Below are positions 246 to 13,508 of a stretch of DNA of 26,830 bases, piece by piece. Position numbers and translations under genes: made by a program. Source of the DNA: a virus. The notes beneath the pieces are model-generated. The model was given only the letters and a program-made list of their open reading frames with translations, did no database searches and was not told the origin of the DNA. Numbering within the stretch: position 1 is the stretch's first letter; each line of letters starts with the position of its first letter. The stretch covers positions 1 through 26,830 of IMG/VR virus record IMGVR_UViG_3300030328_002852; one strand, written 5' to 3'.

Positions 246-547
246 TTCTTTGCCTCATTAAAGATCCAGCTAATTGATTCAGTAAGAGTTGCAATTCCTT
301 TTTGTTTTTCTTCTTCCTGAAGCTTTTGTATTGCATCTGTATATTTCCACCTTTTAACTTCCCTTCTTTCAATTAATACTTCTCCTATTGCAAATTTATT
401 TTCTTCTGCATCTTCAAATTCTTGTAGTCCATTTTTTTCATAATGATCTTTGAATTTGATTAGTAGTTCTTTTTCTTTTCTGATCAATTCATTCTTCTTC
501 AATTTGACTTCGTTAAGTTCTTTTGAAAGTTCTTCAATGTTGATCAT
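242..547 (-). CDS. Coiled-coil hypothetical protein (101 aa)
   Basis: The reading frame is open further upstream, to 706. I place the start at ATG 545-547 (MINIEELSKELNEVK) because that gives a 14-base overlap with the preceding gene, whereas the longer version would lie over it for more than 150 bases. The protein is charged, with a predicted helical coiled coil at about residues 1-35, followed by a mixed region and an amphipathic C-terminus. I see no catalytic motif. Short coiled-coil proteins of this kind are common beside phage recombination genes. Function unknown. Confidence 0.6.
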   Translation of the reverse strand: MINIEELSKELNEVKLKKNELIRKEKELLIKFKDHYEKNGLQEFEDAEENKFAIGEVLIERREVKRWKYTDAIQKLQEEEKQKGIATLTESISWIFNEAKK

Positions 548-746
548 TTTCGGTTCTTGTGTCCAAGGTAAAAGATTGTTCGAGGTTGTTAAGTCGCCAA
601 GCTTTGGCTGCTTTTTTTTCTGCATCGGTTGGTTCATGATCGGGTACAAAATCGGGGCAAATGTCGTTCGGATAAATTCCTTTCTTACGGTTTTCCAAGA
701 ACCCATAAGGAAGATCTTTCACTGTGTTGGGTTTGGTAATAGTCAT
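534..746 (-). CDS. Hypothetical protein (70 aa)
   Basis: The frame is open back to 854, but ATG 744-746 (MTITKPNTVKDLPYG) is the more sensible start, since the upstream part would lie inside the previous gene. Even so it overlaps the end of 685-921 by 62 bases, which is large. The product is hydrophilic and acidic at the C-terminus, with no cysteine pairs, membrane helix or known motif. The stop overlaps the start of the next gene by 14 bases. Function unknown; assigned from operon packing and continuous coding. Confidence 0.5.
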   Translation of the reverse strand: MTITKPNTVKDLPYGFLENRKKGIYPNDICPDFVPDHEPTDAEKKAAKAWRLNNLEQSFTLDTRTENDQH

Positions 747-921
747 CTGGAAGTCCAGCACTTCTGGCCTCCTCCTTAAGAGGAAAACTAGGAAGCGGGT
801 TAGAGGCGAGAGATTCTGCATATTTAAAAAGTGCGATAGCAGGAACGTATGCAATAAGTAAAAGAAAAAGATTCAATCTTCTCCTGATTCTATTTTGCTT
901 AAGGAGGCTTAATTTATTCAT
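685..921 (-). CDS. Small membrane protein (78 aa)
   Basis: The start overlaps the stop of the nuclease gene as ATGA (918-921), the classic arrangement for translational coupling. The N-terminus is positively charged (residues 1-16), followed by one hydrophobic stretch (about residues 17-35, LNLFLLLIAYVPAIALF). This predicts a single membrane-spanning segment with a short soluble tail. A holin-like or membrane-anchor role is possible, but holins usually sit in a lysis cassette and no endolysin is adjacent. No assigned function. Confidence 0.55.
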   Translation of the reverse strand: MNKLSLLKQNRIRRRLNLFLLLIAYVPAIALFKYAESLASNPLPSFPLKEEARSAGLPDDYYQTQHSERSSLWVLGKP

Positions 922-1544
922 TGAAAATTATGCTCCGATTGAAATCTTTGCCATGCGGTGGTCCAGGCGTGCGAGCAGGTAATGGTTCCCTGGTTTGGTG
1001 AAACTGTTGTTTTTCCTGGCCTGCACCAAATCGTTCTAACTTCATCAGGAACAATTCCTGTTGATGTTTTTAGCAGGTGCAAATAACCCCCAAGCTGGGC
1101 ATCTGTTGAATATGGTTTTCTGTCGATAGCGCTTTGAGTTTTTAGATCAAGAAGAATAAGTTTTCCTTTCCAATAGCCAAGAGCATCAAAAGATCCTCCA
1201 AGTGAAATCCTTGGATCACACATTAAATATTCACTAGCTATGGGTTGAAACTCTTGAATAAATTTGTGTTGAAATAATGGAGTGACATAAGTTTCATGAT
1301 CAGGCCAGTAAAAGAAATCTTTCTCTTGCAAGAAATCAGCGAAGACTCTATGAATATCAACCCCTTTAAATTCCCAATTCGGTCTGTGCTTTTCTATTGC
1401 ATCTTTTTCATGCTGAGATTTCAACGCCCATAGCACTCCAGTCACCGATAATTTCATCACCTGATTAGAAGGCAAATGAGTATATTGATGCAGCTCTTGA
1501 TCAAGCTTTATTGGTTGGGGTTTTAGTCGTTCGAGTGTTTTCAT
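918..1544 (-). CDS. PD-(D/E)XK nuclease (RecB/Cas4-like exonuclease)
   Basis: The 208-residue product carries the ordered motifs of the RecB/Cas4/AddB nuclease fold. These are a histidine in a helix (GVDIHRVFADFL, H65), an aspartate in a beta strand (GGSFDALG, D120), the D-x-K pair (ILLDLKTQS, D133 and K135), and a Q-x-x-x-Y helix (QLGGYLHLL, Q150 and Y154). These residues would bind two metal ions and hydrolyse DNA. I see no cluster of four cysteines, so a Cas4-type iron-sulphur cluster is unlikely. In a phage early operon next to a RusA-like gene, the likely role is end resection for recombination or host DNA degradation. Fold confidence is high, exact role moderate. Confidence 0.75.
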   Translation of the reverse strand: MKTLERLKPQPIKLDQELHQYTHLPSNQVMKLSVTGVLWALKSQHEKDAIEKHRPNWEFKGVDIHRVFADFLQEKDFFYWPDHETYVTPLFQHKFIQEFQPIASEYLMCDPRISLGGSFDALGYWKGKLILLDLKTQSAIDRKPYSTDAQLGGYLHLLKTSTGIVPDEVRTIWCRPGKTTVSPNQGTITCSHAWTTAWQRFQSEHNFQ

Positions 1545-1576
1545 TTAATAATTACGGTTGCTTAGGGTGAATGTAT

Positions 1577-1945
1577 TTAGGCAGCTAGATCTTTTGGATC
1601 TGGGAAAGCTTCCACTTTCTCCACTACTTGACCGGACATAGAAAGCCATTCATTTCGGTTTCCTTCTATCCATTCCCTGCATAAGTTTCTATAGACAGGG
1701 GCTTTTGGATATTTAACAGTTGGCCTTGGAAATGTGTCATAACTTTCTGTTAGTCCATCTCCTAAATATTTAGGGATTTTGTGGCTTGGATTTGTAGCAT
1801 CCGCAGGATCTAGAGAATCAAATCTTGATTTTTCTAAGGCTGCATAGCCTGGGCTTGGTTTGTCGAAATCTTCAATAGTTGCTTTTCCAGATGCAACTAA
1901 TCTTGCAAGAACTTTTCCAGCTCCAGAGCTAATAAGTTTTTCCAT
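1577..1945 (-). CDS. Hypothetical protein (122 aa)
   Basis: Starts at ATG 1943-1945, with a good ribosome-binding site (AAGGAG on the minus strand, complement of about 1955-1960) at normal spacing. One base separates it from the preceding stop. The product has an amphipathic N-terminal helix (residues 1-25), a proline-rich middle and a C-terminal segment rich in aromatic residues. I recognise no domain. It is not membrane-bound and has no catalytic signature. Its place in an early operon suggests a replication or host-takeover function, which is context inference only. Confidence 0.6.
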   Translation of the reverse strand: MEKLISSGAGKVLARLVASGKATIEDFDKPSPGYAALEKSRFDSLDPADATNPSHKIPKYLGDGLTESYDTFPRPTVKYPKAPVYRNLCREWIEGNRNEWLSMSGQVVEKVEAFPDPKDLAA

Positions 1946-1946
1946 T

Positions 1947-2207
1947 TTATATTTCTCCTTTCCTATGTCTTGCTTCTAGCTTTACCCTTGCAGTCATGTT
2001 TTCCCTTTCCTCTTCTGAGTATTGAGAAAGGAATCTTTTTTTCTGTTCTTTGTCCCATCCTTGTAAATGCCAAGGCTCATGGAAAACTAAAGTCTTTTGT
2101 GTCTCCCTAACTTTTTCTCTGACATCAGGAACTGTTTTTAATTTTGGGTAAAGTTCAATCATTTCATTCATGTACTCATATTCTTTTTTTAGTGCGTCTA
2201 AATCCAT
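1947..2207 (-). CDS. Charged helical hypothetical protein (86 aa)
   Basis: Starts at ATG 2205-2207, directly after the stop of the preceding gene, with a strong GGAGG ribosome-binding site about nine bases upstream on the minus strand. The product is rich in glutamate, lysine and arginine and appears almost entirely helical. It has a tryptophan-containing segment near the centre (HEPWHLQGWDKEQ). No family recognised. It abuts the genes on both sides, so it is part of the same transcript. Confidence 0.6.
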   Translation of the reverse strand: MDLDALKKEYEYMNEMIELYPKLKTVPDVREKVRETQKTLVFHEPWHLQGWDKEQKKRFLSQYSEEERENMTARVKLEARHRKGEI

Positions 2208-2612
2208 TTATTTTCCCTCCAAAGTTGCTAATACACCTTTTCCAGTTAATTCAGTTTTCTTTAAATCTTCCCCTTTTAGATAAGGGCTTTTTGCTTGAGG
2301 GTTAAATTTATGGCCCATCTTCATACGATGTTCCAAGTCTTGTTTTAAGCCCCATGAATAATTGGGCATCTCGTTCTCCAGGCGAAATAAATACCTGAGC
2401 ATCGAAATATGAACAGCCAAATCTTTGGATGGCTTGGGGTCCATCAAATACTGGTTAGAGGCATAAGCCCACATTTGGTCAGATACAACATCCTTAACTA
2501 ATTGAGGAAGTGTTAACCAAAGAGTGGCTAGATCTTCTGAATCAAGACTCTTTCCATAAGGCGAAATCTTGTAAGTGGTTTTTAAAACCTGAGTAAATAC
2601 TTTTGCTTGCAT
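2208..2612 (-). CDS. Hypothetical protein, possibly replication-associated (134 aa)
   Basis: Begins at ATG 2610-2612, two bases after the stop of the first gene in the operon. The N-terminal half (residues 20-75) is helical, with a repeating hydrophobic pattern and a tryptophan (ATLWLTLPQLVKDVV). The overall look resembles small phage helicase-loader or replication accessory proteins, but no P-loop or defined motif is present, so that is only a suggestion. The C-terminus is basic and probably disordered. It shares the operon with a nuclease and a resolvase. Confidence 0.55.
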   Translation of the reverse strand: MQAKVFTQVLKTTYKISPYGKSLDSEDLATLWLTLPQLVKDVVSDQMWAYASNQYLMDPKPSKDLAVHISMLRYLFRLENEMPNYSWGLKQDLEHRMKMGHKFNPQAKSPYLKGEDLKKTELTGKGVLATLEGK

Positions 2613-2614
2613 GA

Positions 2615-3094
2615 TTAATAAAGTGATGGGGCATTGTCCATTGCTTCAAAGTCCAATTCTTTCTCCTGCCTTTTTATGACTCTTGGCAATCCATATTGTT
2701 CATAGTTGGATAGCGTGATTGATTTCCATTTATTGGCAATAGCCAATTCAAGTTGAGCCTTTGCTACATCAAAGCCATATTTGTCCTTAACTCCTAAAAG
2801 CCCTTTATGACCACAAAGCAAAGCCCATGCCTGCTTTGACTTAGAACCTGGCTTAACTACCCAATAGCTATCAATTAATGGTTTAAGTTCTTGTAGTTGT
2901 TTTGGAACTAAATTTTTATTGTTTCTCTTATTGTTAGTTTTAATGATGGCATAGCTGTCAACACTCTTCAAAACCAACTCATTCACAAAGGCTTCTTTGT
3001 TTAAATGTGAAGGTAGTCGTGCATTGACTTTTGCTTCTGCCTCAGGAGACAAGCGTGGTCTATACGGTCTTTTTCTGTCGCCAATTAGGGGCAT
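2615..3094 (-). CDS. First gene of leftward early operon; basic protein (159 aa)
   Basis: This is the promoter-proximal gene of the leftward operon. The product has a basic, proline-containing N-terminus, a lysine/asparagine-rich linker (about residues 53-63) and a C-terminal helical region ending in an acidic tail. The segment VAKAQLELAIANKWKSI resembles the C-terminal 'A..AI..GW.GI' motif seen in several phage replication initiator proteins. A DNA-binding replication or recombination role is therefore possible. No helix-turn-helix can be asserted by eye. The next gene starts two bases after its stop. Confidence 0.55.
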   Translation of the reverse strand: MPLIGDRKRPYRPRLSPEAEAKVNARLPSHLNKEAFVNELVLKSVDSYAIIKTNNKRNNKNLVPKQLQELKPLIDSYWVVKPGSKSKQAWALLCGHKGLLGVKDKYGFDVAKAQLELAIANKWKSITLSNYEQYGLPRVIKRQEKELDFEAMDNAPSLY

Positions 3095-3226
3095 GGTGTG
3101 ATCCAGTTATGTGCCGAGTGTCTCCCCATTATGCCCCAAGAATGCCCCAGGGTCAATTATTCCCCAAGAATAAATTTCTACAATTCTTAACACTGTTATC
3201 ATAGAAATATCAAAGCAGGGTTCCAC
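3095..3226. promoter_or_regulatory. Divergent control region with CCCC-phased repeats
   Basis: This 132-bp gap separates the leftward operon (start 3094) from a rightward small gene (start 3227). It contains four CCCC tracts at 3124, 3134, 3145 and 3162. The first three lie 10 and 11 bp apart, so they would face one side of the helix. The fuller unit is CCCCAAGAAT, seen at 3134-3143 and 3162-3171. A near copy, TGCCCCAAGTAT, lies at 7652-7663 just upstream of the integrase start. I infer operators for a phage regulator. No repressor gene is visible in the window. Confidence 0.45.
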
Positions 3227-3382
3227 ATGAAACTCTCCACCGCACAAATTAAAAAAAGCCTTATCACCTCAGGTGCTGATCCTTTTCAAGTTGCAGCAGA
3301 AGCCATTGAAAGAGGTGACAGACTACTAGCTCACACCCAACGACTTGAAGAGATGATTCAAAACTCTTCCCTTAAGAATTAA
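3227..3382 (+). CDS. Small helical protein (51 aa)
   Basis: An ATG-started frame of 51 codons facing away from the leftward operon (begins MKLSTAQIKKSLITSG, ends SSLKN). It is predicted to be wholly helical, with alternating charged and aliphatic residues. It is the only rightward gene in the left arm and starts right after the CCCC repeat region, the position often taken by a lysogeny or early regulator in temperate phages. It is too short for me to see a helix-turn-helix. Its last 11 bases overlap the end of the convergent gene 3372-3602. Real-gene status is likely but not certain. Confidence 0.5.
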   Translation: MKLSTAQIKKSLITSGADPFQVAAEAIERGDRLLAHTQRLEEMIQNSSLKN

Positions 3383-3602
3383 GGATTCTCCTGATCATCC
3401 AGCTCTTACTATTTGTATGGCTACAGCCAGCCATCTTTGCTAATTCTTTTTTACTCTTACCCCTATAAATTTCTTCCAGTTGTGGATCACTAATAATTCT
3501 TTTCTCTGGTGATCTATAAACAAACAAAGACCCAATCCCTTTCATTAACTTTCTAATCCATTTAAATAAGAAAAACTTTTTCTTAAAACCTCCTCTTCTC
3601 AT
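3372..3602 (-). CDS. Small basic protein with HTH-like C-terminus (76 aa)
   Basis: The frame is open to 3635, but ATG 3600-3602 (MRRGGFKKKFFLFKW) is preferred because it forms an ATGA overlap with the stop of the upstream gene. The N-terminal 30 residues are very basic and aromatic. The C-terminal half (about residues 40-75, EEIYRGKSKKELAKMAGCSHTNSK) reads like a helix-turn-helix ('...KELAKMAGCS...'). This could be a DNA-binding regulator near the terminase genes and the divergent control regions. Target unknown. Confidence 0.5.
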   Translation of the reverse strand: MRRGGFKKKFFLFKWIRKLMKGIGSLFVYRSPEKRIISDPQLEEIYRGKSKKELAKMAGCSHTNSKSWMIRRILNS

Positions 3603-3811
3603 TCCCCTGCCCCAGACATTGTAATTCTGGTACACATCTTGTATTCACTTTTTAAAATATCTTTTCCATCGCATCCTTCCCTATAGCATTTAAGCGCTTG
3701 CCATCCCAATCCATAAACCCTCCTTTCATGACCATTAGGGCATTTAATTACAGCTCCTGTATTTGGTAATCTCTTTCCTTTCTCGATTGGTACAAATACA
3801 TTTACTGTCAA
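3599..3811 (-). CDS. Zinc-ribbon-like small protein (70 aa)
   Basis: The product contains a CPNGHE motif (about residues 24-29) and, about 18 residues on, C-Y-R-E-G-C. Together these supply the cysteine and histidine ligands for a treble-clef or zinc-ribbon fold. Small zinc-ribbon proteins are common in phage genomes and usually bind nucleic acid or a host protein. The stop overlaps the start of the next gene as ATGA. The divergent start relative to terS (93-bp gap) suggests it marks the beginning of a leftward transcript. Confidence 0.55.
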   Translation of the reverse strand: MTVNVFVPIEKGKRLPNTGAVIKCPNGHERRVYGLGWQALKCYREGCDGKDILKSEYKMCTRITMSGAGE

Positions 3812-3904
3812 TTTTTTCTCCCTTTTTTTATCAAAGTATACCCATCCTTAGGCAGAATGAAATCTTTTCTAGTACTCTGTCCTTATTAGCCTTTATTCTT
3901 CAGA
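3812..3904. promoter_or_regulatory. Divergent gap before terminase genes
   Basis: A 93-bp AT-rich gap between the leftward zinc-ribbon gene and the rightward terS. By position it should hold divergent promoters, and it is where a cos or pac packaging site would be expected. I see AT-rich stretches but no clear -35/-10 pair and no convincing inverted repeat, so this is a positional call only. Confidence 0.25.
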
Positions 3905-4234
3905 GTGACAAAGAAAGGTAAGAAAGGAACTAAATATGAAGTCAGCTCTAGAATTTCTGCTGTTTATGGACTCTTAGCATCGGCAGCTAGTAGGCAAGAA
4001 ATTATTCAACACTGTTCAGTAAATTTCAATGTGTCAGAGAGACAAGCTGATACTTATATAACAAGAGCAAGAGAACAAATTTCTAAAGATTGTGAATTAT
4101 CCAGACCTGCTTTTTTGGCTGAATGTTTAACACGTCTTAGAAATTATGAGAAGGCTGCAATTAAAAGAGGTCATATTCAAGTGGCTGTAAATTCTGTAAG
4201 ACTTCAAGCTGAATTGGTTGGCATTGCTTCATGA
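3905..4234 (+). CDS. terS: Terminase small subunit (probable)
   Basis: The 109-residue product begins at GTG 3905 with a lysine-rich tail. A helical DNA-binding region follows (about residues 30-60, SRQEIIQHCSVNFNVSERQ) that looks like a helix-turn-helix, and the C-terminus is helical and probably oligomerising. This architecture, the size and the immediate position before terL (ATGA overlap at 4231-4234) fit a small terminase, which recognises the packaging site and presents DNA to the large subunit. The assignment depends mainly on gene order, because small terminases are poorly conserved in sequence. Confidence 0.7.
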   Translation: MTKKGKKGTKYEVSSRISAVYGLLASAASRQEIIQHCSVNFNVSERQADTYITRAREQISKDCELSRPAFLAECLTRLRNYEKAAIKRGHIQVAVNSVRLQAELVGIAS

Positions 4235-5559
4235 GTCTTTTATTAGACTCTTGCCCTGGTGGATTACTTTTAGAACCGCCTGAACCTGCAACATCTAAAT
4301 TTGATTACTTAGCTTTATCTCAAAAACTTTATACAAATCTAACTGAACCACAAAAGTTGGTTTATGACGCTGGAGTGAGATTTACTTATCTCTGTTCAGG
4401 TAGAAGATTTGGAAAAACTTATTTAGCAATTACCAGATTAATTAATTGGGCTATTGAAAAGCCTGGTGGTCTTTTTTATTACGTTACTGCTACCTATCGC
4501 ATGGCAAAACAAATTGCTTGGATTCAACTAAAGCAGATGGTTCCCATGGAGATATTTGCATCAAAAAATGAAAGTGATTTATCTGTAACTCTCACTAATG
4601 GATCAACTATTTCTTTAAAAGGTGCAGAAGATCCAGACAAATTAAGAGGGGTTTCTTTGTCTGGAGTTGTTGTTGATGAGGCGGCGTTTGTCAGGGAAGA
4701 TGCTTGGACAATGGTATTAAGGCCAGCTCTTTCTGATCAACAGGGTCCAGCTTGGTTTATTACTACACCCGCTGGATTGAACTGGTTTGCTGAGGCATGG
4801 TCAAATGCAGAAGATGATGATGATTGTTCTACCTTTTCATTCACTACTGTTGAAGGTGGCCATGTATCGAAGGAAGAAGTAGAGGCAGCAAAAAGAACAT
4901 TAGACAGCCGAACTTTTAGCCAAGAATATGAAGCCAGCTTTGTTAATTTGGTTGGTCGGGTTGTTCCAGACTTTGATGAAAATAATATCTCTGAAGATGT
5001 TGTTGATTTAGGTGGTGAGCTTCTTGTTTTCGCAGATTTCAACGTGTCTCCCATGCACTGGATCATTTGCCAAAGAGTTGGTGGTGATCAATTACATGCC
5101 TTTGATGAGATTCATATTAAAGAAACTCATACAGATGAGGCTTGTTCAGAATTGCTTAGGCGTTATCCAAACAGAGAAATAAAAGCCTTTCCAGATCCAA
5201 CTGGTAATGCTAGAAAAACTTCTGCTGGAGGAATTACTGATCATGGCATCCTAAGAAATAGAGGTATCTGGGTTTATCCAAATAAAAGCCCTTATGGACA
5301 GACTGATAAAAGAAATGCGGTTAATGCAATGGTTATGGATGCAGAAGGAACAAGAAGATTCTTTATCCATCCAAGGTGTAAGCAAACAATTAAATCACTT
5401 AGGAACTTGACCTTTAAAGAAGGAACCAATATTCCAGATAAGGATTCAGGTTGGGATCATGGATGGGACGCAATTTCATACGGGATATTAGGAGCGTTTA
5501 ATAGAGTGAAGCCCTGGAAGTCTGGTAAGGCAAAAGCAAAGGTTGCTCAGATTTGGTAA
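4231..5559 (+). CDS. terL: Terminase large subunit
   Basis: A complete 442-residue packaging motor. The N-terminal ATPase domain has a Walker A motif (SGRRFGKT, residues 56-63), a Walker B motif with its catalytic glutamate (VVVDE, 146-150) and a coupling motif (WFITTPAG). The C-terminal nuclease domain shows the expected acidic residues: VFADFNVSP (D269), FPDPTG (D322) and DHGWDAISYGI (D409 or D413). It would pump DNA into a prohead docked at a portal and cut it to length. Portal genes normally follow directly, but here a non-coding stretch and the integrase follow instead. The frame is intact, with no sign of decay. Confidence 0.95.
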   Translation: MSLLLDSCPGGLLLEPPEPATSKFDYLALSQKLYTNLTEPQKLVYDAGVRFTYLCSGRRFGKTYLAITRLINWAIEKPGGLFYYVTATYRMAKQIAWIQLKQMVPMEIFASKNESDLSVTLTNGSTISLKGAEDPDKLRGVSLSGVVVDEAAFVREDAWTMVLRPALSDQQGPAWFITTPAGLNWFAEAWSNAEDDDDCSTFSFTTVEGGHVSKEEVEAAKRTLDSRTFSQEYEASFVNLVGRVVPDFDENNISEDVVDLGGELLVFADFNVSPMHWIICQRVGGDQLHAFDEIHIKETHTDEACSELLRRYPNREIKAFPDPTGNARKTSAGGITDHGILRNRGIWVYPNKSPYGQTDKRNAVNAMVMDAEGTRRFFIHPRCKQTIKSLRNLTFKEGTNIPDKDSGWDHGWDAISYGILGAFNRVKPWKSGKAKAKVAQIW

Positions 5560-5707
5560 CTGTCTAATGTCGCAGGTAAAAAACTAAAACTTTTATTTTT
5601 CCTACTTACACCCCCCATGTACGGTCCTTCCCATTGTGCTTCCTTAAGGGAAACAGTATACTAAGAATGTAGAAAAGACAGACAAGACAAACAAAACCCT
5701 AAGTACA

Positions 5708-5825
5708 CGGGCTGTAAGTCAAGTCAAACAACATCTAACAAGTTCAGGTACCGCCAGACCAAACCTTTTGAAATGGGTCAGGCCGCAAAAGATAAGCGTA
5801 ACCTTTAATGCTACCGATCAGCCCG
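5708..5825 (+). ncRNA. Candidate structured RNA downstream of terL
   Basis: Between terL and the integrase operon, 5560-5985 has no convincing gene. Inside it, CGGGCTG (5708-5714) pairs perfectly with CAGCCCG (5819-5825), closing a domain of about 118 nt. Within the domain, GCC-A-GACC (5753-5760) pairs with GGTC-A-GGC (5776-5783) around one A.A mismatch, and AGC/GCT and GGTA/TACC can add weaker helices. A rho-independent terminator follows at 5856-5880. I could not match it to tmRNA, 6S, RNase P, a group I or group II intron, or a hammerhead. It could be a small RNA, a structured 3' UTR of terL, or part of a packaging site. Confidence 0.4.
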
Positions 5826-5855
5826 AAACACTATCTAGGGGCAGATCTAAATTAA

Positions 5856-5880
5856 GCCTCCTTAATCGGAGGTTTTTTTT
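5856..5880 (+). terminator. Rho-independent terminator after terL and the structured RNA
   Basis: CCTCC (5857-5861) pairs with GGAGG (5868-5872) around a six-base loop and is followed by eight T residues (5873-5880). The stem extends by weak flanking pairs (AAG with TTT). It would end the terminase transcript and define the 3' end of the candidate RNA. Confidence 0.8.
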
Positions 5881-5956
5881 ATGGGATTCATTAGAATAAG
5901 ATTGCTGTTTATCCATGCAACTTATTTCTTAAGCACTTGACGGGAATTAGATATCC

Positions 5957-5987
5957 AACCTCTTGGCTTTATTGCTAAGGGGTTTTT
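5957..5987 (+). terminator. Second rightward terminator, facing the integrase operon
   Basis: AACCTCTTGGC (5957-5967) and GCTAAGGGGTT (5974-5984) form an 11-bp stem with two G.T pairs and a TTTATT loop, followed by a T-run to 5987. It lies between the rightward terminase transcript and the convergent leftward integrase operon, so it insulates the two. Confidence 0.7.
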
Positions 5988-6150
5988 ATTTGCTGGTTTT
6001 TTCTTTCAACATCCCAACTTCTACCTCTAGTGCGTTGAGCCTTTTAAAGATTTCGACTGTATAGGCTTCTTTCCTTTTACCACTATTAGCAACGACCATT
6101 GCAACGCAACTAATAGCAGCTCCTAAAACAGCGGCAATTATTTCATTCAT
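5986..6150 (-). CDS. Small membrane/coiled-coil protein (54 aa)
   Basis: A 54-codon frame from ATG 6148-6150 to TAA at 5986-5988. Residues 4-21 (IIAAVLGAAISCVAMVVA) form a clear hydrophobic span. A basic turn (GKRKEA) and an amphipathic heptad-like helix (about residues 31-51) follow. Its start lies inside the end of the preceding gene (8-base overlap), so it is coupled in the integrase operon. The layout resembles small holin- or spanin-accessory proteins, but with no endolysin nearby a lysis role is speculative. It may be a lysogeny-expressed membrane protein. Confidence 0.55.
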   Translation of the reverse strand: MNEIIAAVLGAAISCVAMVVANSGKRKEAYTVEIFKRLNALEVEVGMLKEKTSK

Positions 6151-6298
6151 TTTCTAAAAGGCTTTTCCATTTGAGATAAGTTTCTAATTCTTTTCCTAAT
6201 CCATTTAGTAGACCATTTGTTCTTTTGTCTAAGTGGTACATCTTTTCAATTAATGATGCCCTTTCAGTTGTTTCTTGAGGAGTAATGTTCTTTGTCAT
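6143..6298 (-). CDS. Small helical protein downstream of integrase (51 aa)
   Basis: A 51-codon frame (MTKNITPQETTERASLIEK...) beginning ten bases after the integrase stop and overlapping the next gene by eight bases. The product is hydrophilic, charged and probably helical throughout. Small genes beside integrases are often excisionases or regulators, but I see no winged-helix or MerR-like motif here, so that role is only a possibility. Tight spacing argues that it is translated from the integrase transcript. Confidence 0.5.
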   Translation of the reverse strand: MTKNITPQETTERASLIEKMYHLDKRTNGLLNGLGKELETYLKWKSLLENE

Positions 6299-6307
6299 TC
6301 AATAATA

Positions 6308-7621
6308 TTAATCGTCAGGAAGAATGATAGATGACATTACACGTTTTCTATATTCTTCTTTTGATACCCATTTTAGATAATGATTTTTATGGGTTTCTAC
6401 ATCATGGCCCATTGCTAAAGCAGCTTGAGAAATATCTACGTGTTTGAATCTTGGATCTGTTGCCAGTCTTATAGCGAAGGTGTGTCTCAGGTCATAGCAC
6501 CTAATTTGTTTTTCAATTGTTTCTGGCTGATGTTGTCCTCTTGCATCTGGAACACTAGCCGCCCATTCAGGTAGCACCTGGCGCAATCTGTCACCAATAA
6601 ATTCACCAAGCTTTTTATTGTTCATGCATATTCCTTGATCAGTTGGATCTTTTGAATCCCAATCTTTTGATGGATCATGCTGGCTAACTAATTTAGGTTT
6701 TGCTATTTCATGCAATTGTTTTTGGCATTCTTCAAATCTGTTCTTTAGGCCATAGCGCACAATCCAAGATTTATATAAAGGGAAGACCCAATGTTCATAT
6801 TTAGATTTTGTTCTCCAATATCCAGGGACATAAACCCAACCAAATTGAATACCTTCTTCTTTGTTTTCTTCAGTGATATTTGAAACCCAATGAAGTTCAT
6901 GATTTCTCAATCCGTAATTCATGAGCATGGCCAAACACCATTGCTCTAGTTTGTATTTAGGCCATAAGTTGTCCAAATATTTTTCAGCTTCTTCTTGAGT
7001 TGGGATTCCTCTTATCTCAACTTTCTTTCCATTGGTCAATTTGTTCTGGCTATTAATTCTTTCATTGTGGAGATTTCTAAGGTCTTGATATTGCTTTTCA
7101 GTTAGCCAAGTAGGTTCCTGATTTTTATTATCTGCTTTTTTTAGAGCCTTAATTATTTGCTTGATAGTATCTAATCTATTTCTGCAAGCACTAGATCCAA
7201 GCTTTTTAACTGTTACCCAATCCTGTATAGCATCAAAATTTCTAGGAATATCATTTCTTTTTAAGTCATTTAATCCAGCCCAAAGGTTAACGGTTGAACC
7301 TTCTTTCATTCTTAAAGGCCAATCATCCTTGCAAGCTTTTTCTATCTCTGCCCAAGAAGGGAGAATTGTTTTAGTAGTTTCTTCTTTCTCGGTGGTTACT
7401 CCTGCCCAATCTTTTTGGTCGGTAACAATGCAGGCATCAAAAACTTTATTTATATCAATAGGATTATCTGTTCTAAATGGTTTGCATGAAATTCTTTTTC
7501 TGTCTTTTTGATCTCTTACATATATAAAAGGAGATTTAGAATCTTTCTCTAATCTCCATCTTGTCCCAGCTCTTTTTAGATCTTTTGTGTATTCAGGCCA
7601 GGTTCTAAGAATTAAGGCCAT
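6308..7621 (-). CDS. int: Tyrosine-family site-specific integrase
   Basis: The 437-residue product has the tyrosine-recombinase catalytic set: R239 in NYGLRNHEL, a lysine at 272-274 in WRTKSK, R379-H380 in YDLRHTFAIR, H406 in MGHDVETH and the nucleophile Y415 in KNHYLKWV. Box II reads Y-D-L-R where many members have H-D-L-R, so the first histidine is replaced by tyrosine (Y376), a tolerated variation. The N-terminal 80 residues would bind arm sites and the next 100 the core. It lies next to attP and is transcribed away from it, as is usual. It would integrate the circular genome into a host tRNA gene. Start ATG 7619-7621; no good ribosome-binding site is visible. Confidence 0.95.
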   Translation of the reverse strand: MALILRTWPEYTKDLKRAGTRWRLEKDSKSPFIYVRDQKDRKRISCKPFRTDNPIDINKVFDACIVTDQKDWAGVTTEKEETTKTILPSWAEIEKACKDDWPLRMKEGSTVNLWAGLNDLKRNDIPRNFDAIQDWVTVKKLGSSACRNRLDTIKQIIKALKKADNKNQEPTWLTEKQYQDLRNLHNERINSQNKLTNGKKVEIRGIPTQEEAEKYLDNLWPKYKLEQWCLAMLMNYGLRNHELHWVSNITEENKEEGIQFGWVYVPGYWRTKSKYEHWVFPLYKSWIVRYGLKNRFEECQKQLHEIAKPKLVSQHDPSKDWDSKDPTDQGICMNNKKLGEFIGDRLRQVLPEWAASVPDARGQHQPETIEKQIRCYDLRHTFAIRLATDPRFKHVDISQAALAMGHDVETHKNHYLKWVSKEEYRKRVMSSIILPDD

Positions 7622-7627
7622 TTAGGA

Positions 7628-7647
7628 AGTCGGGAAAAAGTCGGGAA
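7628..7647 (+). repeat. Integrase arm-type repeat pair, left side of attP
   Basis: AGTCGGGAA occurs at 7628-7636 and again at 7639-7647, 11 bp apart start to start, i.e. about one helical turn. The same pair, with one base changed in the second copy, occurs on the other side of the core at 7867-7886. Paired, phased direct repeats on both sides of a tRNA core are the expected layout of sites bound by the N-terminal domain of a tyrosine integrase. Confidence 0.7.
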
Positions 7648-7660
7648 GAATTGCCCCAAG

Positions 7661-7700
7661 TATAACCATGTATCACCAACTATCACCAACTATTCAACAG
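7661..7700 (+). repeat. Four tandem 10-bp units in attP arm
   Basis: TATAACCATG, TATCACCAAC, TATCACCAAC and TATTCAACAG lie head to tail, two of them identical (7671-7680 and 7681-7690). The 10-bp period matches one helical turn. Between the left arm repeats and the core, this is where excisionase or a host bending protein would bind; that role is inferred. Confidence 0.5.
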
Positions 7701-7741
7701 AAGAGAAGTAAATGTATTCCTTGAAATCCCTTTGAGGCAAT

Positions 7742-7768
7742 AAAAAAGCCCCTGAGGGCTTTGTTTTT
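7742..7768. terminator. Bidirectional terminator adjoining the attP tRNA core
   Basis: AAAGCCC (7745-7751) pairs with GGGCTTT (7756-7762) around CTGA. T-tracts lie on the plus-strand side (7761-7768) and, on the minus strand, beyond 7745. Read in the tRNA direction (minus) it falls just after the CCA end, so after integration it can replace the host tRNA gene's own terminator. Confidence 0.7.
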
Positions 7769-7866
7769 ATTTGGTGGCGGGGGGAAGATTTGAACTTCCG
7801 ACCTTCGGGTTATGAGTCCGAACTTATTTTCTAAAATCCCTTGATGGCATTAGACTAGGTTTTGAA

Positions 7867-7886
7867 AGTCGGGAAAAATTCGGGAA
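7867..7886 (+). repeat. Integrase arm-type repeat pair, right side of attP
   Basis: AGTCGGGAA (7867-7875) and ATTCGGGAA (7878-7886) repeat the left-side pair in the same orientation and with the same 11-bp phasing. The last base lies directly against the ATG of the neck gene at 7887, so integrase bound here would cover the start region of the tail operon. Confidence 0.7.
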
Positions 7887-8348
7887 ATGGCTTTAAAAGA
7901 TTGGGTTCCTCAGGTCAGGAAAGCTTTAGACCAAGCTTTGACTGATCATATCGCTCTTACACAGGGAAAGCTATCTCAAGCCAATCCAAAAGATACTGGC
8001 CGTATGGCTTCAAGTTGGTTTGTCGGAAAAGATCAACCTGATCTACAAACAAGGGATGAAAATTGGGGTAAACCTGCAAAAAGAAAATATCCAGGTGGTG
8101 TTGGAACTGAAGGAGTAATTGTTGAACCTGGAGTAATGAAATTAGATATTCCTTATTATCAAAAGAAAATTACTTCTGATTCTGATTGGTATATATCAAA
8201 TAATCTTCCATATGCTGAAAGGGTTGCATATGATCCTGTTTATGCAAAAGGAGCGCCAGGTGGTGTTGCTTGGTTTACAACAATTGCAACACAACAAAAA
8301 AACGATTTAAAAAAACGCATCCTTAAAGAACTAGGAAAAATCAAATGA
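7887..8348 (+). CDS. Neck / head-tail joining protein (HK97 gp10-like)
   Basis: The 153-residue product has a basic helical N-terminus, the motif NPKDTGRMASSW at residues 34-45 (P-x-D-T-G-x-x), and a C-terminal helix rich in lysine. This is the pattern of HK97 gp10-type neck proteins, which sit between the connector and the tail terminator. It is the first gene of the tail operon and overlaps the next gene by four bases. Its ATG immediately follows the last attP arm repeat, leaving only GGGAA as a possible ribosome-binding element. The genes normally preceding it (portal, protease, capsid, connector) are absent here. Confidence 0.7.
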   Translation: MALKDWVPQVRKALDQALTDHIALTQGKLSQANPKDTGRMASSWFVGKDQPDLQTRDENWGKPAKRKYPGGVGTEGVIVEPGVMKLDIPYYQKKITSDSDWYISNNLPYAERVAYDPVYAKGAPGGVAWFTTIATQQKNDLKKRILKELGKIK

Positions 8349-8773
8349 GTTTACAAACAATTAGATCTTTATTTGAGAGAAAAATGACAACAGCTTTTGC
8401 TGGCCTTTCTCCATCTGTTCCCGTGATGTATGACAACGTACAGGAGGAACCTCCAGGGGGAGCAAATACAGAATACGTTCAATTAATTGTTAGTTTTCCA
8501 TCTATAAGTGAGCCAGTTGTAACAAAAGCAGAAAGTGGAATTGAAGTAATTAGAGGAAGCGTTCAAGTTAGTTGCTACGGACCAAAAGCAAAAGGAATGA
8601 AAAGGTTGGAAGAAATGGCAGCCTTAGCAGCCTCAACTTTGAACACATTGAAAACAGAAGATACAACGATTAGAGCAAGCGTTGGAGAAATCAGTGGACC
8701 TATACCAGTAATCAATTCAAACAATCCACTTGCATTGGTAACTATTTCAGCTCCATTTATTGCAAAAGGTTAA
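8345..8773 (+). CDS. Tail terminator protein (lambda gpU-like)
   Basis: The 142-residue product has a helical N-terminus (RSLFERKMTTAFAGL), a central 'EYVQLIVSFP' strand and an alternating beta-helix pattern typical of tail terminator proteins. These cap the growing tail tube and join it to the neck. The position after a gp10-like protein and before the tube gene supports the call, as does the size. The start overlaps the previous stop as ATGA. No odd features. Confidence 0.65.
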   Translation: MSLQTIRSLFERKMTTAFAGLSPSVPVMYDNVQEEPPGGANTEYVQLIVSFPSISEPVVTKAESGIEVIRGSVQVSCYGPKAKGMKRLEEMAALAASTLNTLKTEDTTIRASVGEISGPIPVINSNNPLALVTISAPFIAKG

Positions 8774-8795
8774 GCCTCCTTAGGGTTAATATAAT
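8770..8795 (+). promoter_or_regulatory. Candidate promoter for the tail-tube gene
   Basis: A consensus TATAAT lies at 8790-8795, 78 bases before the tube gene start, in a roughly 100-bp gap inside an otherwise tightly packed operon. The -35 region (around 8767-8772) is weak. The gap also contains a 13-mer, TTAAGCCTCCTTA (8770-8782), that recurs at 5852-5864 and, inverted, at 900-912. With the terminator after the tube gene, it suggests a separate transcript. Confidence 0.4.
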
Positions 8796-8872
8796 GTTAT
8801 TGGTTAGCCCTAGCCAAAGCCCCAAGCCCCAAAAGAAACGCCCTCAAATTGTTTTTTATTAGGTAAATTCAA

Positions 8873-9652
8873 ATGCCTGTAGCTTGTTCCTCAACGGCTT
8901 TAACTGGCCAAGAGGGTTCTATTTATTTTTCCCCTGCTGGGACAAAATGGTGTCTTAAGGATTACACAGATTTCCCAAGTGGCGCTAATGGTGTAACTGT
9001 TCCATCGAATCATGACTTTAGAGTTAATGATCCTGTGAAATTCACAGTGGTTGGAACTGCCACTCTTGATGGCAACCTTACAGCGGGTACTGTCTATTAC
9101 GTGATAGCAGTTACAGCTACCACAATTAAAGTTGCTACTGCGGCGGGTGGTTCAAATATCGCTCTTGCTGGTAGTGGCGGTACTGGGTCAGCAGATAAAT
9201 CTGGACATATTAATGTTCAGTATTCAGCAGCGGCGGCTGTTGCCCAAGTAAGGGAATTTTCTGTTGATATTGAAAGGGAAACTCTAGATGTAACAACGCT
9301 TCCAGCGGGTGTTGCTTCTGTTACTAAGTATGCTCCTTTCAGGAATACACAGCCAGGTTATGCCAGTGGTAGTGGTTCAATGACTGTTTACTTTACTGAT
9401 AGCCAAACCAGTCTTGCAAATAGATTGTTAGGTAATGTCCTTTTGAAGTCTCAAGAGGGTGCTTCAGTAAAACTTTATGTTGATACAGTTGATAACGGCG
9501 CTGGGGCTGTTGATGATACTAATTCAACTTATATTGATTCAGATGTCTCTATAACAGGGATGAGTTTAAGCGTTACTCCTGATGAAGCAACTACTGCTGA
9601 AATGAGTTTTAACCTTACTAATCCAAGACATATCTTTAGCACTACTTTGTAA
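8873..9652 (+). CDS. Major tail tube protein
   Basis: The 259-residue product fits a lambda gpV/TP901-type tube subunit by position (terminator, then tube, then chaperone, then tape measure) and by its beta-rich C-terminal half. The signature VREFSVDIERETLDVTTL is at residues 126-143, followed about 30 residues later by GSGSMTVYF, and recurs in two later genes (18132, 18594). An inserted beta-rich domain, about residues 38-115 (DFRVNDPVKFTVVGTATL...), precedes the signature and may be displayed outside the tube. The gene is flanked by its own candidate promoter and a strong terminator, fitting the need for many copies. Confidence 0.8.
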   Translation: MPVACSSTALTGQEGSIYFSPAGTKWCLKDYTDFPSGANGVTVPSNHDFRVNDPVKFTVVGTATLDGNLTAGTVYYVIAVTATTIKVATAAGGSNIALAGSGGTGSADKSGHINVQYSAAAAVAQVREFSVDIERETLDVTTLPAGVASVTKYAPFRNTQPGYASGSGSMTVYFTDSQTSLANRLLGNVLLKSQEGASVKLYVDTVDNGAGAVDDTNSTYIDSDVSITGMSLSVTPDEATTAEMSFNLTNPRHIFSTTL

Positions 9653-9686
9653 TAAGTGCTTAACTAAAAATAACCCCATCATTCTG

Positions 9687-9712
9687 AGCCTATTTTTATA
9701 TAGGCTTTTTTC
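9687..9712 (+). terminator. Rho-independent terminator after the tail-tube gene
   Basis: AGCCTAT (9687-9693) pairs with ATAGGCT (9700-9706) around TTTTAT, followed by a T-run to 9712. It lies 35 bases after the tube stop, within the tail operon. Confidence 0.85.
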
Positions 9713-9729
9713 TTGTCTAAAATTAATTT

Positions 9730-9784
9730 GTTAGGCGTTCTAGGTCATGCCTAACCGTATGCAAGAAGTCGCTACTTCATACGG
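9730..9784 (+). other. Two further hairpins between tube and chaperone genes
   Basis: GTTAGGC (9730-9736) pairs with GCCTAAC (9749-9755). Directly after, CCGTAT (9755-9760) pairs with ATACGG (9779-9784), enclosing GAAGT/ACTTC (9765-9769 with 9774-9778) around CGCT. Neither has a T-tract, so they are not simple terminators. They may protect an mRNA end or be processing sites, or may form a small RNA with the flanking terminators. Confidence 0.55.
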
Positions 9785-9790
9785 ACAATT

Positions 9791-9816
9791 GGGGGCTTAT
9801 ATCCATGCCCCCTTTT
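9791..9816 (+). terminator. GC-rich terminator-like hairpin
   Basis: GGGGGC (9791-9796) pairs perfectly with GCCCCC (9807-9812), followed by TTTT (9813-9816). It is the fourth hairpin in a row between the tube and chaperone genes and is consistent with a back-up terminator. Confidence 0.6.
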
Positions 9817-9820
9817 GTTA

Positions 9821-9849
9821 TGGATTACTCCTAACGAGGGATATATAAT
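9821..9849 (+). promoter_or_regulatory. Candidate promoter for chaperone and tape-measure genes
   Basis: TATAAT at 9844-9849, with TGGATT at 9821-9826 as a weak -35, 17 bp apart. It lies just after the tandem hairpins and 27 bases before the chaperone start, so transcription could restart here. Seen by eye only. Confidence 0.4.
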
Positions 9850-9875
9850 TTAATTAAGCGACACATTTCTTTTTT

Positions 9876-10262
9876 ATGGATGCACTTGATGAGTTGAAGG
9901 CTGCCTGTTCGATGGCAACGGTAAGAAAAGAAATAGCCTTACCCAATGGAAAATTATTTGAGTTTTACATGACTCCAATGACCTTGGCAGAAAGATCAAG
10001 GGCGCAAAAGATGAGCAAAGAAAATGATACAACTGATTTTGCTTTGAGATTATTGGTTGATAAGGCAATGAATCAAGACAATGAAAAGCGCTTTCATATT
10101 GGTCATTTGCCAGGATTAAGAAATGAATTGCCAGCTACTTTGGTTGAAAAGCTGATGATGGCATTGATTGGAGAAGATGAAGAAGATGAGGAGGTGCAAA
10201 AGGATCTAAATATCAAAAGTGTTAGCAAAGAGCCTAAGAAAAGACGGTCCACTCCTAGCTGA
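9876..10262 (+). CDS. Tail assembly chaperone, short form (lambda gpG-like)
   Basis: The 128-residue unshifted product is helical, with an acidic stretch near residues 105-112 (EDEEDEE), as in many G-type chaperones that coat the tape measure before tube polymerisation. It sits between the tube gene and the tape measure, the invariant position for this gene. The out-of-frame extension (10243-10410) shows it is the upstream part of a frameshifted pair. Stop TGA at 10260-10262. Confidence 0.75.
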   Translation: MDALDELKAACSMATVRKEIALPNGKLFEFYMTPMTLAERSRAQKMSKENDTTDFALRLLVDKAMNQDNEKRFHIGHLPGLRNELPATLVEKLMMALIGEDEEDEEVQKDLNIKSVSKEPKKRRSTPS

Positions 10263-10410
10263 ATTAGTAGTTGCAAAAGAATTGGGTTATACGTTATTTG
10301 AACTTAGGGAGAAAATGACACAGGAAGAGCTGCTGATTTGGCACGCCTTTTTTCAAATACAAAAAGAAGAAGAGGACAAAGTTATGAATAAAAGCAGAAT
10401 GCGGCGCTAA
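9876..10410 (+). CDS. Tail assembly chaperone, frameshifted long form (gpGT-like)
   Basis: After the AAA codon at 10239-10241 a +1 (or -2) shift enters a frame open to 10410. This gives about 122 + 55 residues in a fused product. The extension (ELGYTLFELREKMTQEELLIWHAFFQIQKEEE) has the tryptophan-containing helix typical of T-domains, which recruit tube subunits to the chaperone-tape complex. Lambda uses a -1 shift at G-GGA-AAG; here the relation of the frames is +1, so the mechanism must differ. A small amount of long form is normally required. The extension has no plausible independent promoter or start with good spacing. Confidence 0.7.
10233..10247 (+). other. Likely +1/-2 frameshift site
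   Basis: Codons read CCT AAG AAA AGA CGG in the short-form frame. The tRNA-Lys on AAA (10239-10241) can re-pair one base downstream on AAA (10240-10242), while an AGA codon waits in the A-site. Reading then continues GAC GGT CCA in the long-form frame. The zero-frame stop follows six codons later (10260). Confidence 0.5.
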
Positions 10411-10440
10411 AATAAAAAGGATTCTGCCTAAGGAAGAAGA

Positions 10441-13011
10441 TTGGCTGAGCAAACCCTGTTATTAAAGATATTAAGTTCGGGTGCTGAACGTAAGTTAAAG
10501 CAGCTTGAAGATAAGATGAACGCCTTTGAAAAGGCGGCTAAAAAAGCACAGGGAACATTACCAAAAACAAATAAGCAAATAAAAGATACAGGTAAGGCGG
10601 CCAATGAATCAGCAAAAGGTATTGGCAACTTACAAAAAAAACTACTTGGATTAGGTAAAACTATTGCAGTAGGCGCTGGGGTGATGACGTGGTTTAGAGG
10701 TTTTGCAGAAGCTGATCGAGCATCTGGAGCTGTTAAAACTTTGGGAGTAAATGTTGAAGAATTAAAGAAGCAATTATTTGATGTATCTGTAGCATCTGGA
10801 AACTTAAGAAGTCAAACAGAATTATTAGCAGCTTCTTATGATGTTGCATCTGCTGGATTTACTAGCGCTGCTGATATAAGCAAAATTCTGGCAGCTTCTG
10901 TTGATGGTGCTGTTGGTGGTATGACCACGATGGCAAAAGTATCTGATGCAGCTACCTCTGTTATGAACACTTATGGAAAAAGTGCTGATGAGGCTAGAGG
11001 TTTAATTGATGGATTTATACAGACACAGAATGACGGTAAAATTATCCTTGATCAATATGCAAGCCAGATTGGACGTTTGGCTCCTATGGGTGCAGCGGCT
11101 GGCGTAGGTATTCAAGAATTAAACGCTGCAATTAGTGCGATAACAGCAACAGGTTTACCAGTTGAACAGACATTTACTGGTTTGAAAATGGTTCTTCAGG
11201 GAATTGTTAGGCCAACAAGTGAAGCTGCTGCAATTGCTAAAAAATTAGGAATTGATTTTGATGCAACAGCATTAAAAGGCAAAGGTTTTGCTGGAGTCTT
11301 GCAAGACATGATTCAAAAGACTGGAGGAAATAAGGAAGCAATGGGCAGAATGTTTGGAAGCGTTGAGGCGTTGAATGCTTTCTTACCTTTGGTGAATGAC
11401 AACTTAGCTAAGTTCAATAAGAATTTAGATAATCAAAAAAATGCAAGTGGAGCTGCATCTGAAGCTGCAAAAATAATGAGTGGAACAGTTGGGCAAGCGC
11501 TGGGAAGAGTAGCTGATGGAATGGGAAATATTATTAGAAACTTGGATTATTTAGGTGTTGCTTTTAAATATGTTTTATCAATAGTTAATGAATTTATTCA
11601 AGGCTTTTTAAAAATGCCTAAATGGTTCCAAATTGCCACCACTTCTGTTGTTGCTTTAAGTATTGGATTATTGGCGCTAGGTCCAGCGGTTGGAGTTGTC
11701 ATGGCTGTATTTAAGGGGATGATGGCATTTGCAATTCCTTCATTAGTTACATTTGCGGCTGGTACTTTGGCGGCTGTTGGTCCTTGGTTATTATTAGCTG
11801 CTGGAATCACAGCGGCGGTTGTTGCTATAAAAAACTTTTTTGATAAAAAGAATCAATTTAAGGGAGCAAAATTAGACGATTTAATTGCTAGTGAAGATGG
11901 AGGCAAATTAAATAAAGCCTTAGAAGAAGCTGATAAAAGGATTCAAAAGTTAAGAGATAAAATGGCCGATGTTTCTAGGTACAGGGGAAGAGGTGGAACA
12001 GGAAAAGCAAAGAATGATAAAAATGAATTAGCGGAATTAATGGCAGCAAAAGCAGAAATAGAGAAAGCAATGGCAGCTTTAGAAAAAGGAGCTGCTGGTA
12101 AAATTGGGAAAGAAGGTGGAGTCATAGAACAATCAGAAGCTTGGTTGAAAGCACAGGAGGCTTTGAAAGAGTTAAATAAAAGTTCAGCGAGTGAAGGTGA
12201 AAAATTATTTGAGCAACTGACACAAGAAAATGCAATGCTTGAAGCGAAAATAAAAGGAACAGAAGCTGTTAAACAATTAGAGAGAGATATTTTATCTACT
12301 AAGTTAAAAGCTGCTGGATTTAATGATGCAGAAATTAAAGCAATACTTGATCAAAATGAAGGGTTAAAGAAAAAGCTTACACATGCTGAAAAACTCAAAG
12401 ATTTATGGAAATCAATTGGAGATGATATTAAGTCTGGAGTCGTTGATGGAATTAAAGCAGCGATTACTGGAGCTAAATCTTTTGGTGAGGTGATGTCAAA
12501 TATTCTTGGACGTATAGGAGATAAATTATTGAATATGGGGATAGATTCAATATTCAGTAATTTGGGTGGCGGTGGTGGATGGTTAGGTAAATTATTTGGC
12601 GGTGCAGAAGGTGGATTAGCTAGAGGAGGAATTTCATCTAAAGCCTTTGCTCAAGGTGGTGTTGCTACTGGTCCAACTCTTGGACTCGTGGGAGAAAACG
12701 GTGAGGATGAATACCTCATACCCTCCAGTAAAATGGCTGGGGCAATGCAACGGTACTCAGCAGGCGCCAGGGGTCAAGGTGTTATCCCTGGAGGTGGAAC
12801 TGTTGCAAGTGGAACTGGAATGCCTGCCACATCTACAACAGTGAACTACACAGGCCCAATATTATCGTTTAACAGTGAATCTTATGTACCAAAATCTGCT
12901 ATCCCAGAAATCATAAATAGCGCTGCTAGACGAGGTGCACAAGAAGGACAATCAAAGGTCTTTAACCAGCTTAAAAACTCTCGTAGTCAACGCTCAAGAA
13001 TAGGATTATGA
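10441..13011 (+). CDS. Tail tape measure protein
   Basis: The 856-residue product starts at TTG 10441 behind a purine-rich ribosome-binding site (AAGGAAGAAG). Its N-terminal third is coiled-coil and alanine-rich. A TP901-type tape-measure core follows (about residues 80-350, with 'GM..MAKVSDAATSVMNTYGKS'-like segments). Hydrophobic spans lie at about residues 400-465, and a glycine-rich C-terminus ends the protein. The tape measure sets tail length and is ejected into the cell ahead of DNA. At about 0.15 nm per residue the tail would be near 130 nm (inference). The frame is intact and overlaps the next gene by four bases. Confidence 0.9.
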   Translation: MAEQTLLLKILSSGAERKLKQLEDKMNAFEKAAKKAQGTLPKTNKQIKDTGKAANESAKGIGNLQKKLLGLGKTIAVGAGVMTWFRGFAEADRASGAVKTLGVNVEELKKQLFDVSVASGNLRSQTELLAASYDVASAGFTSAADISKILAASVDGAVGGMTTMAKVSDAATSVMNTYGKSADEARGLIDGFIQTQNDGKIILDQYASQIGRLAPMGAAAGVGIQELNAAISAITATGLPVEQTFTGLKMVLQGIVRPTSEAAAIAKKLGIDFDATALKGKGFAGVLQDMIQKTGGNKEAMGRMFGSVEALNAFLPLVNDNLAKFNKNLDNQKNASGAASEAAKIMSGTVGQALGRVADGMGNIIRNLDYLGVAFKYVLSIVNEFIQGFLKMPKWFQIATTSVVALSIGLLALGPAVGVVMAVFKGMMAFAIPSLVTFAAGTLAAVGPWLLLAAGITAAVVAIKNFFDKKNQFKGAKLDDLIASEDGGKLNKALEEADKRIQKLRDKMADVSRYRGRGGTGKAKNDKNELAELMAAKAEIEKAMAALEKGAAGKIGKEGGVIEQSEAWLKAQEALKELNKSSASEGEKLFEQLTQENAMLEAKIKGTEAVKQLERDILSTKLKAAGFNDAEIKAILDQNEGLKKKLTHAEKLKDLWKSIGDDIKSGVVDGIKAAITGAKSFGEVMSNILGRIGDKLLNMGIDSIFSNLGGGGGWLGKLFGGAEGGLARGGISSKAFAQGGVATGPTLGLVGENGEDEYLIPSSKMAGAMQRYSAGARGQGVIPGGGTVASGTGMPATSTTVNYTGPILSFNSESYVPKSAIPEIINSAARRGAQEGQSKVFNQLKNSRSQRSRIGL

Positions 13012-13508
13012 GTATTACTTATTTAACTGGATTTATCTATTTCACGGATGGAAATAATAATCCAAGAGGTGCTTATCAAAACAGTAGAAGAGATAATATT
13101 GAAAGTACAACAGGATCAGATAATGAAATTATTTTAAATGGCAATACTTACTCCTACTTACCCTTTATTTATCAAGGTGCAGCTAAAACAAAATCTGGAG
13201 ATAATTTAGAAGCGCAAATAATTTTTGCTAATAATTCTGTGGCAATGAATCACGCAAATCAAGCAGTAGTTGAAAAGTGGAATGTGCAAGTTGATATATG
13301 TAAAATGAACTCTTCTTTTACGAGTGTGCAGGGGAATCCTCTAACTACAGATAATTGGTTAGTTGCTTCTATGTCTTATGACCCAAGCACAATTGAACTT
13401 CTAGTCTCAAGTGCTATTGATGCAGTTGGAACCAATTGCCCGAATCGAGTTTTAACTAATAATCTTGTTGGTTATTTACCAACTACAGCAAACATAAGAA
13501 ACTTTTGA
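13008..13508 (+). CDS. Tail tip protein (lambda gpL-like position)
   Basis: The 166-residue product begins SITYLTGFIYFTDG and ends in GYLPTTANIRNF. It is beta-rich with no membrane segment. By position (directly after the tape measure, before an NlpC/P60-like protein) it fills the lambda M/L slot in the tail-tip operon. The C-terminal 'NRVLTNNLVGYLPTTANIR' pattern is reminiscent of gpL-type proteins. Two cysteines (in VDICK and TNCPN) are present but do not make the known gpL iron-sulphur pattern obvious. Overlaps both neighbours by a few bases. Confidence 0.6.
   Translation: MSITYLTGFIYFTDGNNNPRGAYQNSRRDNIESTTGSDNEIILNGNTYSYLPFIYQGAAKTKSGDNLEAQIIFANNSVAMNHANQAVVEKWNVQVDICKMNSSFTSVQGNPLTTDNWLVASMSYDPSTIELLVSSAIDAVGTNCPNRVLTNNLVGYLPTTANIRNF

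Follow-up and report, generated by a model that had tools for sequence, protein, structure and literature searches.

Gene content of the scaffold

The window analyzed in this study, a stretch of 26,830 nucleotides, comprises bases 1-26,830 of G000, a 29,457-bp linear IMG/VR scaffold from an uncultured marine cyanobacterial phage. A run of 10 N at 26,831-26,840 marks its right edge, and the record was read to its true end at 29,457 bp, using open reading frames and PHROG matches for the gene calls. The 29,457-bp record has no terminal repeats, indicating an open fragment. Early genes, including an exonuclease (PHROG 298), occupy 1-3811 on the minus strand. On the plus strand, a terS-like small terminase gene (3905-4234) matched PHROG 34910, a family of unknown function, and held the same position in relatives, directly upstream of terL and overlapping its start. 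The terL gene for the large terminase subunit (4231-5559, plus strand) was intact (PHROG 2, E 4e-43; Pfam Terminase_6N). The tail operon begins with a Neck1/tail-completion gene of the HK97 gp10 type (7887-8348, plus strand; PHROG 169, E 1e-7; custom profile, E 2e-62). The tail module (8345-25,716, plus strand) was assigned from PHROGs and from 90% nucleotide identity to the relative G002 over 5996-22,111; it contains the tail terminator (8345-8773; PHROG 179), major tail protein, chaperone, tape measure, tip, fibres and small genes, the last being a 100-aa ORF at 25,414-25,716.

The interval between terL and Neck1, where a lambda- or HK97-type phage carries its head genes (terL-portal-protease/minor head-scaffold-capsid-connectors-neck, on one strand), held only a short RNA-like stretch, terminators, small ORFs, a leftward integrase and attP. 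Directly 3' of terL, a promoter-like element (5617-5662, plus strand) consists of the box ATGTACGGTCCTTCCCATTG and, 20 nt further on, TATACT, and it was invariant in all four relatives that have this region. A possible small RNA (5663-5885, plus strand), 92% identical in G002, ends in a terminator hairpin at 5854-5875, and the terminator scan placed a second terminator at 5957-5984. The folding z-score of this RNA-like stretch of approximately 220 nt was only -1.9, and no Rfam family matched it above the gathering score, with a single weak sub-threshold match. Two small minus-strand ORFs of 54 and 51 aa (5986-6298) lie downstream of the integrase gene. The 54-aa ORF (5986-6150) was homologous, at approximately 45% identity, to a 62-aa ORF at 29,172-29,360 of the full record; both are of membrane type, one adjoining the integrase and the other the cassette at the right end.

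The tyrosine integrase gene (6308-7621, minus strand) gave weak PHROG hits. In four relatives it is 73-96% identical with intact motifs, and it has a homologue in phage P-SS2 (25% identity across 97% of its length). The adjacent attP (about 7774-7822, minus strand) corresponds to the 3' half of a tRNA-Met(CAT) gene (cmscan tRNA, 27 bits) and is 92-94% identical to the P-SS2 site. On the host side, a complete tRNA-Met gene in the Prochlorococcus single-cell genome AG-402-B05 adjoins an integrase gene whose product is 87% identical to that of the window, the locus sharing 86% nucleotide identity with window 6187-7821. Over 81 bases, the attP and the tRNA-Met/integrase junction on contig L218 of that genome share 96% identity. 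This locus adjoins an asparaginase-like gene and is the tRNA-Met and ansA locus that was proposed as the integration site of P-SS2 (PMC2784084). An integrase and an attP matching a host tRNA, the equipment of a temperate picocyanobacterial siphophage, thus occur together in the window. On L218 (9774-11,435), the tRNA-Met island encodes a large RTX-like repeat protein in place of phage genes, and another contig of AG-402-B05, L220, contains a second partial copy of tRNA-Met. No TerL match was found in AG-402-B05, the one host genome examined, and hence no prophage with this terL; in GTDB species genomes, the search for an intact prophage returned only one integrase relative, in an island with RTX-like cargo and without terL. 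The cargo of the AG-402-B05 island and its lack of a TerL match indicate that this integrase family is used by genomic islands as well.

Custom head profiles were built from relatives, in which they do recover the corresponding genes. Searched in six frames over all 29,457 bp of the record, they gave no match for portal (best E 4.8), minor head (1.5), scaffold (0.019), capsid (0.72), Ad1 (6.5) or Hc1 (0.14), while terL, neck and tail terminator were recovered at 4e-225, 2e-62 and 2e-65. On the strength of this negative search, the possibility that short or overlapping frames conceal head genes was rejected. A first-pass annotation of the window had reported an intact terL without portal, protease and capsid genes behind it, an RNA-like stretch, terminators, a leftward integrase and attP in their place, a gp10-like gene next, and no head gene anywhere in the window. 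Each of these observations held, the last even over the full 29,457 bp.

Head genes in related contigs

A TerL scan identified nine relatives. Two of them, G002 (L005; 3300030095_004573, 26,514 bp) and G003 (L006; 3300026134_000044, 15,817 bp), aligned with most of their sequence to the window at approximately 90% identity, encoded TerL proteins 94-95% identical to that of G000, and repeated its terL-integrase-attP-neck junctions. The same terL-integrase-neck order occurred in G009 (3300030450_002819), with proteins 70-86% identical, and integrase, attP and neck were also shared by G018, G019 and G020. A further relative, G001 (L013; 3300030095_003963, 20,216 bp), matched window 1-2222 and 3127-4645 at 90-92% and reaches 15 kb to the left of window base 1. 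In G001 the early block leads leftward to recombination genes and then to the portal gene, and G003 likewise extends the early block leftward. Scans with the exonuclease and a 260-aa early-gene product found only G001 and G003 at high identity among contigs extending left of base 1.

The head genes of G001 all lie on the minus strand, with portal at 8454-9968, minor head at 2502-4838, scaffold at 1417-2115 and capsid at 285-1400, and their PHROG matches are to portal, minor head/head morphogenesis, scaffolding and major head proteins, respectively. In G002, the tail is followed by Hc1 and Ad1, both on the minus strand, and bases 1-101 of G001 equal G002 26,414-26,514 at 99%, linking the two contigs. 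The arrangement was also seen in G009, a single 37,693-bp contig without N, in which a capsid start, scaffold, minor head and portal, all leftward, are followed by leftward early genes and rightward terL, and which also carries the leftward integrase and the rightward neck and tail genes. Terminase, portal, capsid, neck and tail genes are accordingly present together in G009 and in G001 and G002 combined. The tail-to-head junction was spanned by G011, G012 and G013, while G020 reaches Hc1. In G010, G014 and G015, a cassette separates minor head from portal. In G010 (L067, IMGVR_UViG_3300020411_002946), the major capsid gene is interrupted at 7523-7765 (minus strand) by a group I intron (Rfam RF00028, E 5.7e-17).

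Together, these contigs give a circular map of the clade that reads tail (+), Hc1-Ad1-capsid-scaffold-minor head (-), cassette, portal (-), early genes (-), terS-terL (+), integrase (-)/attP and neck (+). The inverted head genes keep their internal order, but they are interrupted by a cassette of four secreted-type proteins after portal. G001 and G009 imply a genome of approximately 41-43 kb, and every long relative has head genes. In the literature searched, no paper describing terL-integrase-neck together with an inverted head arrangement was found.

In G001, G009 and G015, portal is preceded at approximately 1.5 kb by an inverted copy of the promoter-like element, with at most two mismatches in the 20-nt box; the canonical relatives checked had no such copy. 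Copies were located at window 5617-5662, L024 11,479-11,523, L065 9303-9347 and L072 841-885. The spacing between box and TATACT is constant, and in G009 two copies flank the early-terS-terL segment. The element is probably a phage promoter, one copy serving the leftward head operon and the other a short terminated RNA. The 45-bp inverted element is also attractive as a mark of an inversion breakpoint, because inverting the early-terS-terL segment between the two G009 copies sets terL before portal in one direction; a duplicated promoter explains the observations equally well.

The first-pass annotation had suggested extending the contig on both sides and searching it with head profiles, and had allowed that a moved head module might lie beyond the right end or before base 1. 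The circular map places the head genes of the relatives there. For the clade, the idea of a moved head module is upheld by an inverted head set in relatives of approximately 90% identity; for G000 itself, the extension to 29,457 bp on the right was negative and its own head genes went unseen.

The right end of the scaffold

Downstream of the tail module, a 134-aa cargo gene (25,713-26,117, minus strand; PHROG 35149) occupies the slot in which G002, G011-G013 and G020 have Hc1 and Ad1, the last part of the inverted head module; in some rearranged relatives Hc1 and Ad1 come after one extra gene. Homologues of the 134-aa gene occur in cyanomyoviruses, some of them annotated as chromosome segregation protein, and no relatives of it were found in IMG/VR. 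Relatives carry a 191-193-aa oxygenase-like ORF in its slot. The window then closes on the start of an ordinary cyanophage cassette (26,247-26,830, plus strand) encoding 85-aa and proline-rich proteins, in the same order as in G024, G025 and dozens more contigs. Across 26,831-29,457, these rightward genes continue and are followed by four leftward secreted-type genes (PHROGs 848, 650, 564 and 2714) and the 62-aa ORF, which sits where rearranged relatives have portal. The last 3.7 kb (25.7-29.4 kb) therefore show the ordinary cyanophage layout, with a slot after the tail that lacks Hc1, Ad1 and capsid. The complete cassette (26,247-29,360 of the full record: 85-aa, proline-rich and four leftward secreted-type proteins) was present in at least 80 marine contigs, and a homologue of one of its proteins in more than 400 cyanophage records, mostly named hypothetical. 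The cassette is possibly related to lysis or the envelope.

Identity to other contigs changes along the scaffold. High identity to rearranged relatives (approximately 92% for G002 and G020) extends to 22,111, a position within the fibre gene, whereas 24,766-25,707 and 26,148-29,457 match ordinary phages at approximately 78-89% (82-86% for the former segment). Compared with ordinary phages such as G024 and G025, the cassette of G000 was 43-91% identical in the 85-aa protein, 70-94% in the proline-rich protein and 83-87% in a 261-aa protein, whereas its proteins were 27-56% identical to the version of the rearranged clade (27-43% in G001 and G009). No second contig with the right-end junction of G000 was found.

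The absence of head genes and the ordinary right end of G000 imply that the scaffold is mosaic or was misjoined near 22-24 kb, within the variable fibre gene, or that its head genes lie in the gap between its ends. We consider the chances evenly balanced that G000 is a chimera, produced either by misassembly or by recent recombination, in which bases 1 to approximately 22 kb come from the rearranged clade and the rest from an ordinary cyanosiphophage. The loss of near-identity at 22,111, the closer match of the right end to ordinary phages, and the presence in all inverted-head relatives of their own cassette version between minor head and portal argue for this reading. Mosaicism is, however, natural in fibre regions, and matches to rearranged relatives recur past 22.1 kb (G013, 95% at 22,596-22,729; G002, 90% at 25,414-25,694). 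Furthermore, the join across the 10 N at 26,831 is sound: a misjoin at this run was rejected, since in dozens of contigs the sequences on its two sides form a single proline-rich gene. If G000 is a chimera, the missing head genes at its right end say nothing about the real phage, and this reading refines the assignment of the window to the rearranged clade rather than opposing it.

Alternatively, an intact head module could lie in the gap leading from 29,457 back to base 1, beside the early genes and in an order unseen in any relative. This is rather unlikely. The record is an open fragment, and genomes of 41-43 kb imply that some 12 kb is possibly missing; yet the ordinary relatives that share the right-end cassette continue into early genes only, and in no contig do head genes occupy this place.

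The first-pass annotation had also considered an element with terminase and tails but without a capsid. Such a headless satellite, with terminase, integrase and tail but without portal and capsid, would package its DNA into helper heads; we consider it highly improbable, and similarly remote is the prospect that G000 is a natural recombinant that has lost its head module and packages into related cyanophage heads, on which it would then depend. The lack of any head gene in 29,457 bp is compatible with a satellite, and a gap filled by early genes alone would close the genome at approximately 32-34 kb. However, head genes are present in every long relative, ordinary phages of similar size share the right-end cassette, and the same facts are accounted for by a chimera; the record, moreover, is incomplete. 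The capsid-less idea thus gained no positive support, no relative being headless. Capsid-forming satellites (cf-PICIs) carry capsids and borrow tails; their likeness to G000 is limited to the idea of a split head and tail supply, and nothing here shows the opposite arrangement. Finally, an assembly artefact in which a misplaced integrase contig created the terL-integrase-neck order, for which no support was found, is refuted by independent contigs from other assemblies that repeat the junctions (G002, G003 and G009; integrase-attP-neck in G018, G019 and G020).

Proposed organization and comparison with known phages

The window very probably belongs to a clade of temperate-type cyanosiphophages whose head module has been inverted and moved, and G000 has the appearance of a phage that was rearranged, not of one that lacks a head. 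The late genes of this clade form three units, namely terS-terL (+), neck-tail (+) and the head genes (-). The terS-terL unit ends in the promoter-like element, the possible small RNA and the terminators; the integrase with its tRNA-Met attP takes the place of the head genes between terL and neck; and the neck and tail genes run rightward from just past attP. The head unit runs leftward, as the early genes do, and is located between these and the end of the tail module; the phage from which G000 derives presumably has the same head set. Head proteins act in trans, so assembly does not depend on the usual gene order. The displaced head genes do need a leftward promoter of their own, for which the inverted post-terL element, approximately 1.5 kb before portal, is the likely candidate. 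The phage is presumably capable of lysogeny, and integration at the host tRNA-Met would open the circle between integrase and neck.

This arrangement indicates that siphophages can depart at both ends from the very conserved terL-portal-capsid-neck order, with the head genes on the other strand and an integration module filling their place, in an uncultured lineage that is widespread in ocean metagenomes. It also cautions against inferring a satellite from a metagenomic fragment that lacks a head module. Little is known about temperate phages that infect Prochlorococcus and Synechococcus. With an integrase, a tRNA-Met attP and a matching integrase at the same locus of a Prochlorococcus single-cell genome, integration by this clade is directly testable.

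By tape measure protein, the nearest isolates are the Prochlorococcus siphoviruses P-HS2/MED4-184 and MED4-117 (~38 kb), with 44-48% of the query covered at approximately 47-50% identity. Their TerL, portal, capsid, Ad1, Hc1 and neck proteins are homologous to those of the clade, but the genes stand in the canonical order terL-portal-minor head-scaffold-capsid-Ad1-Hc1-neck on one strand, and no homologue of the window integrase was found in them. Similarly, the metagenomic phage G004 (L007; IMG/VR 3300030376_006475), whose TerL is 80-81% identical and whose head and tail genes are homologous, differs in having the canonical order, as also seen in G016, G017, G022 and G024, and no integrase in the slot. 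P-SS2 resembles the clade in its integrase homologue, its nearly identical tRNA-Met attP and its proposed tRNA-Met/ansA locus (PMC2784084), but it is a 107-kb phage of another lineage with the integrase elsewhere in its genome. The closest TerL among isolates (49%) is that of S-2L, which also has a split head, with terL-portal-minor head leftward and scaffold-capsid-Ad1-Hc1-neck rightward. The breakpoint differs, however: in S-2L, terL stays with portal and capsid with the tail, whereas in the clade of the window terL is set apart from portal and the whole head set from neck and tail.
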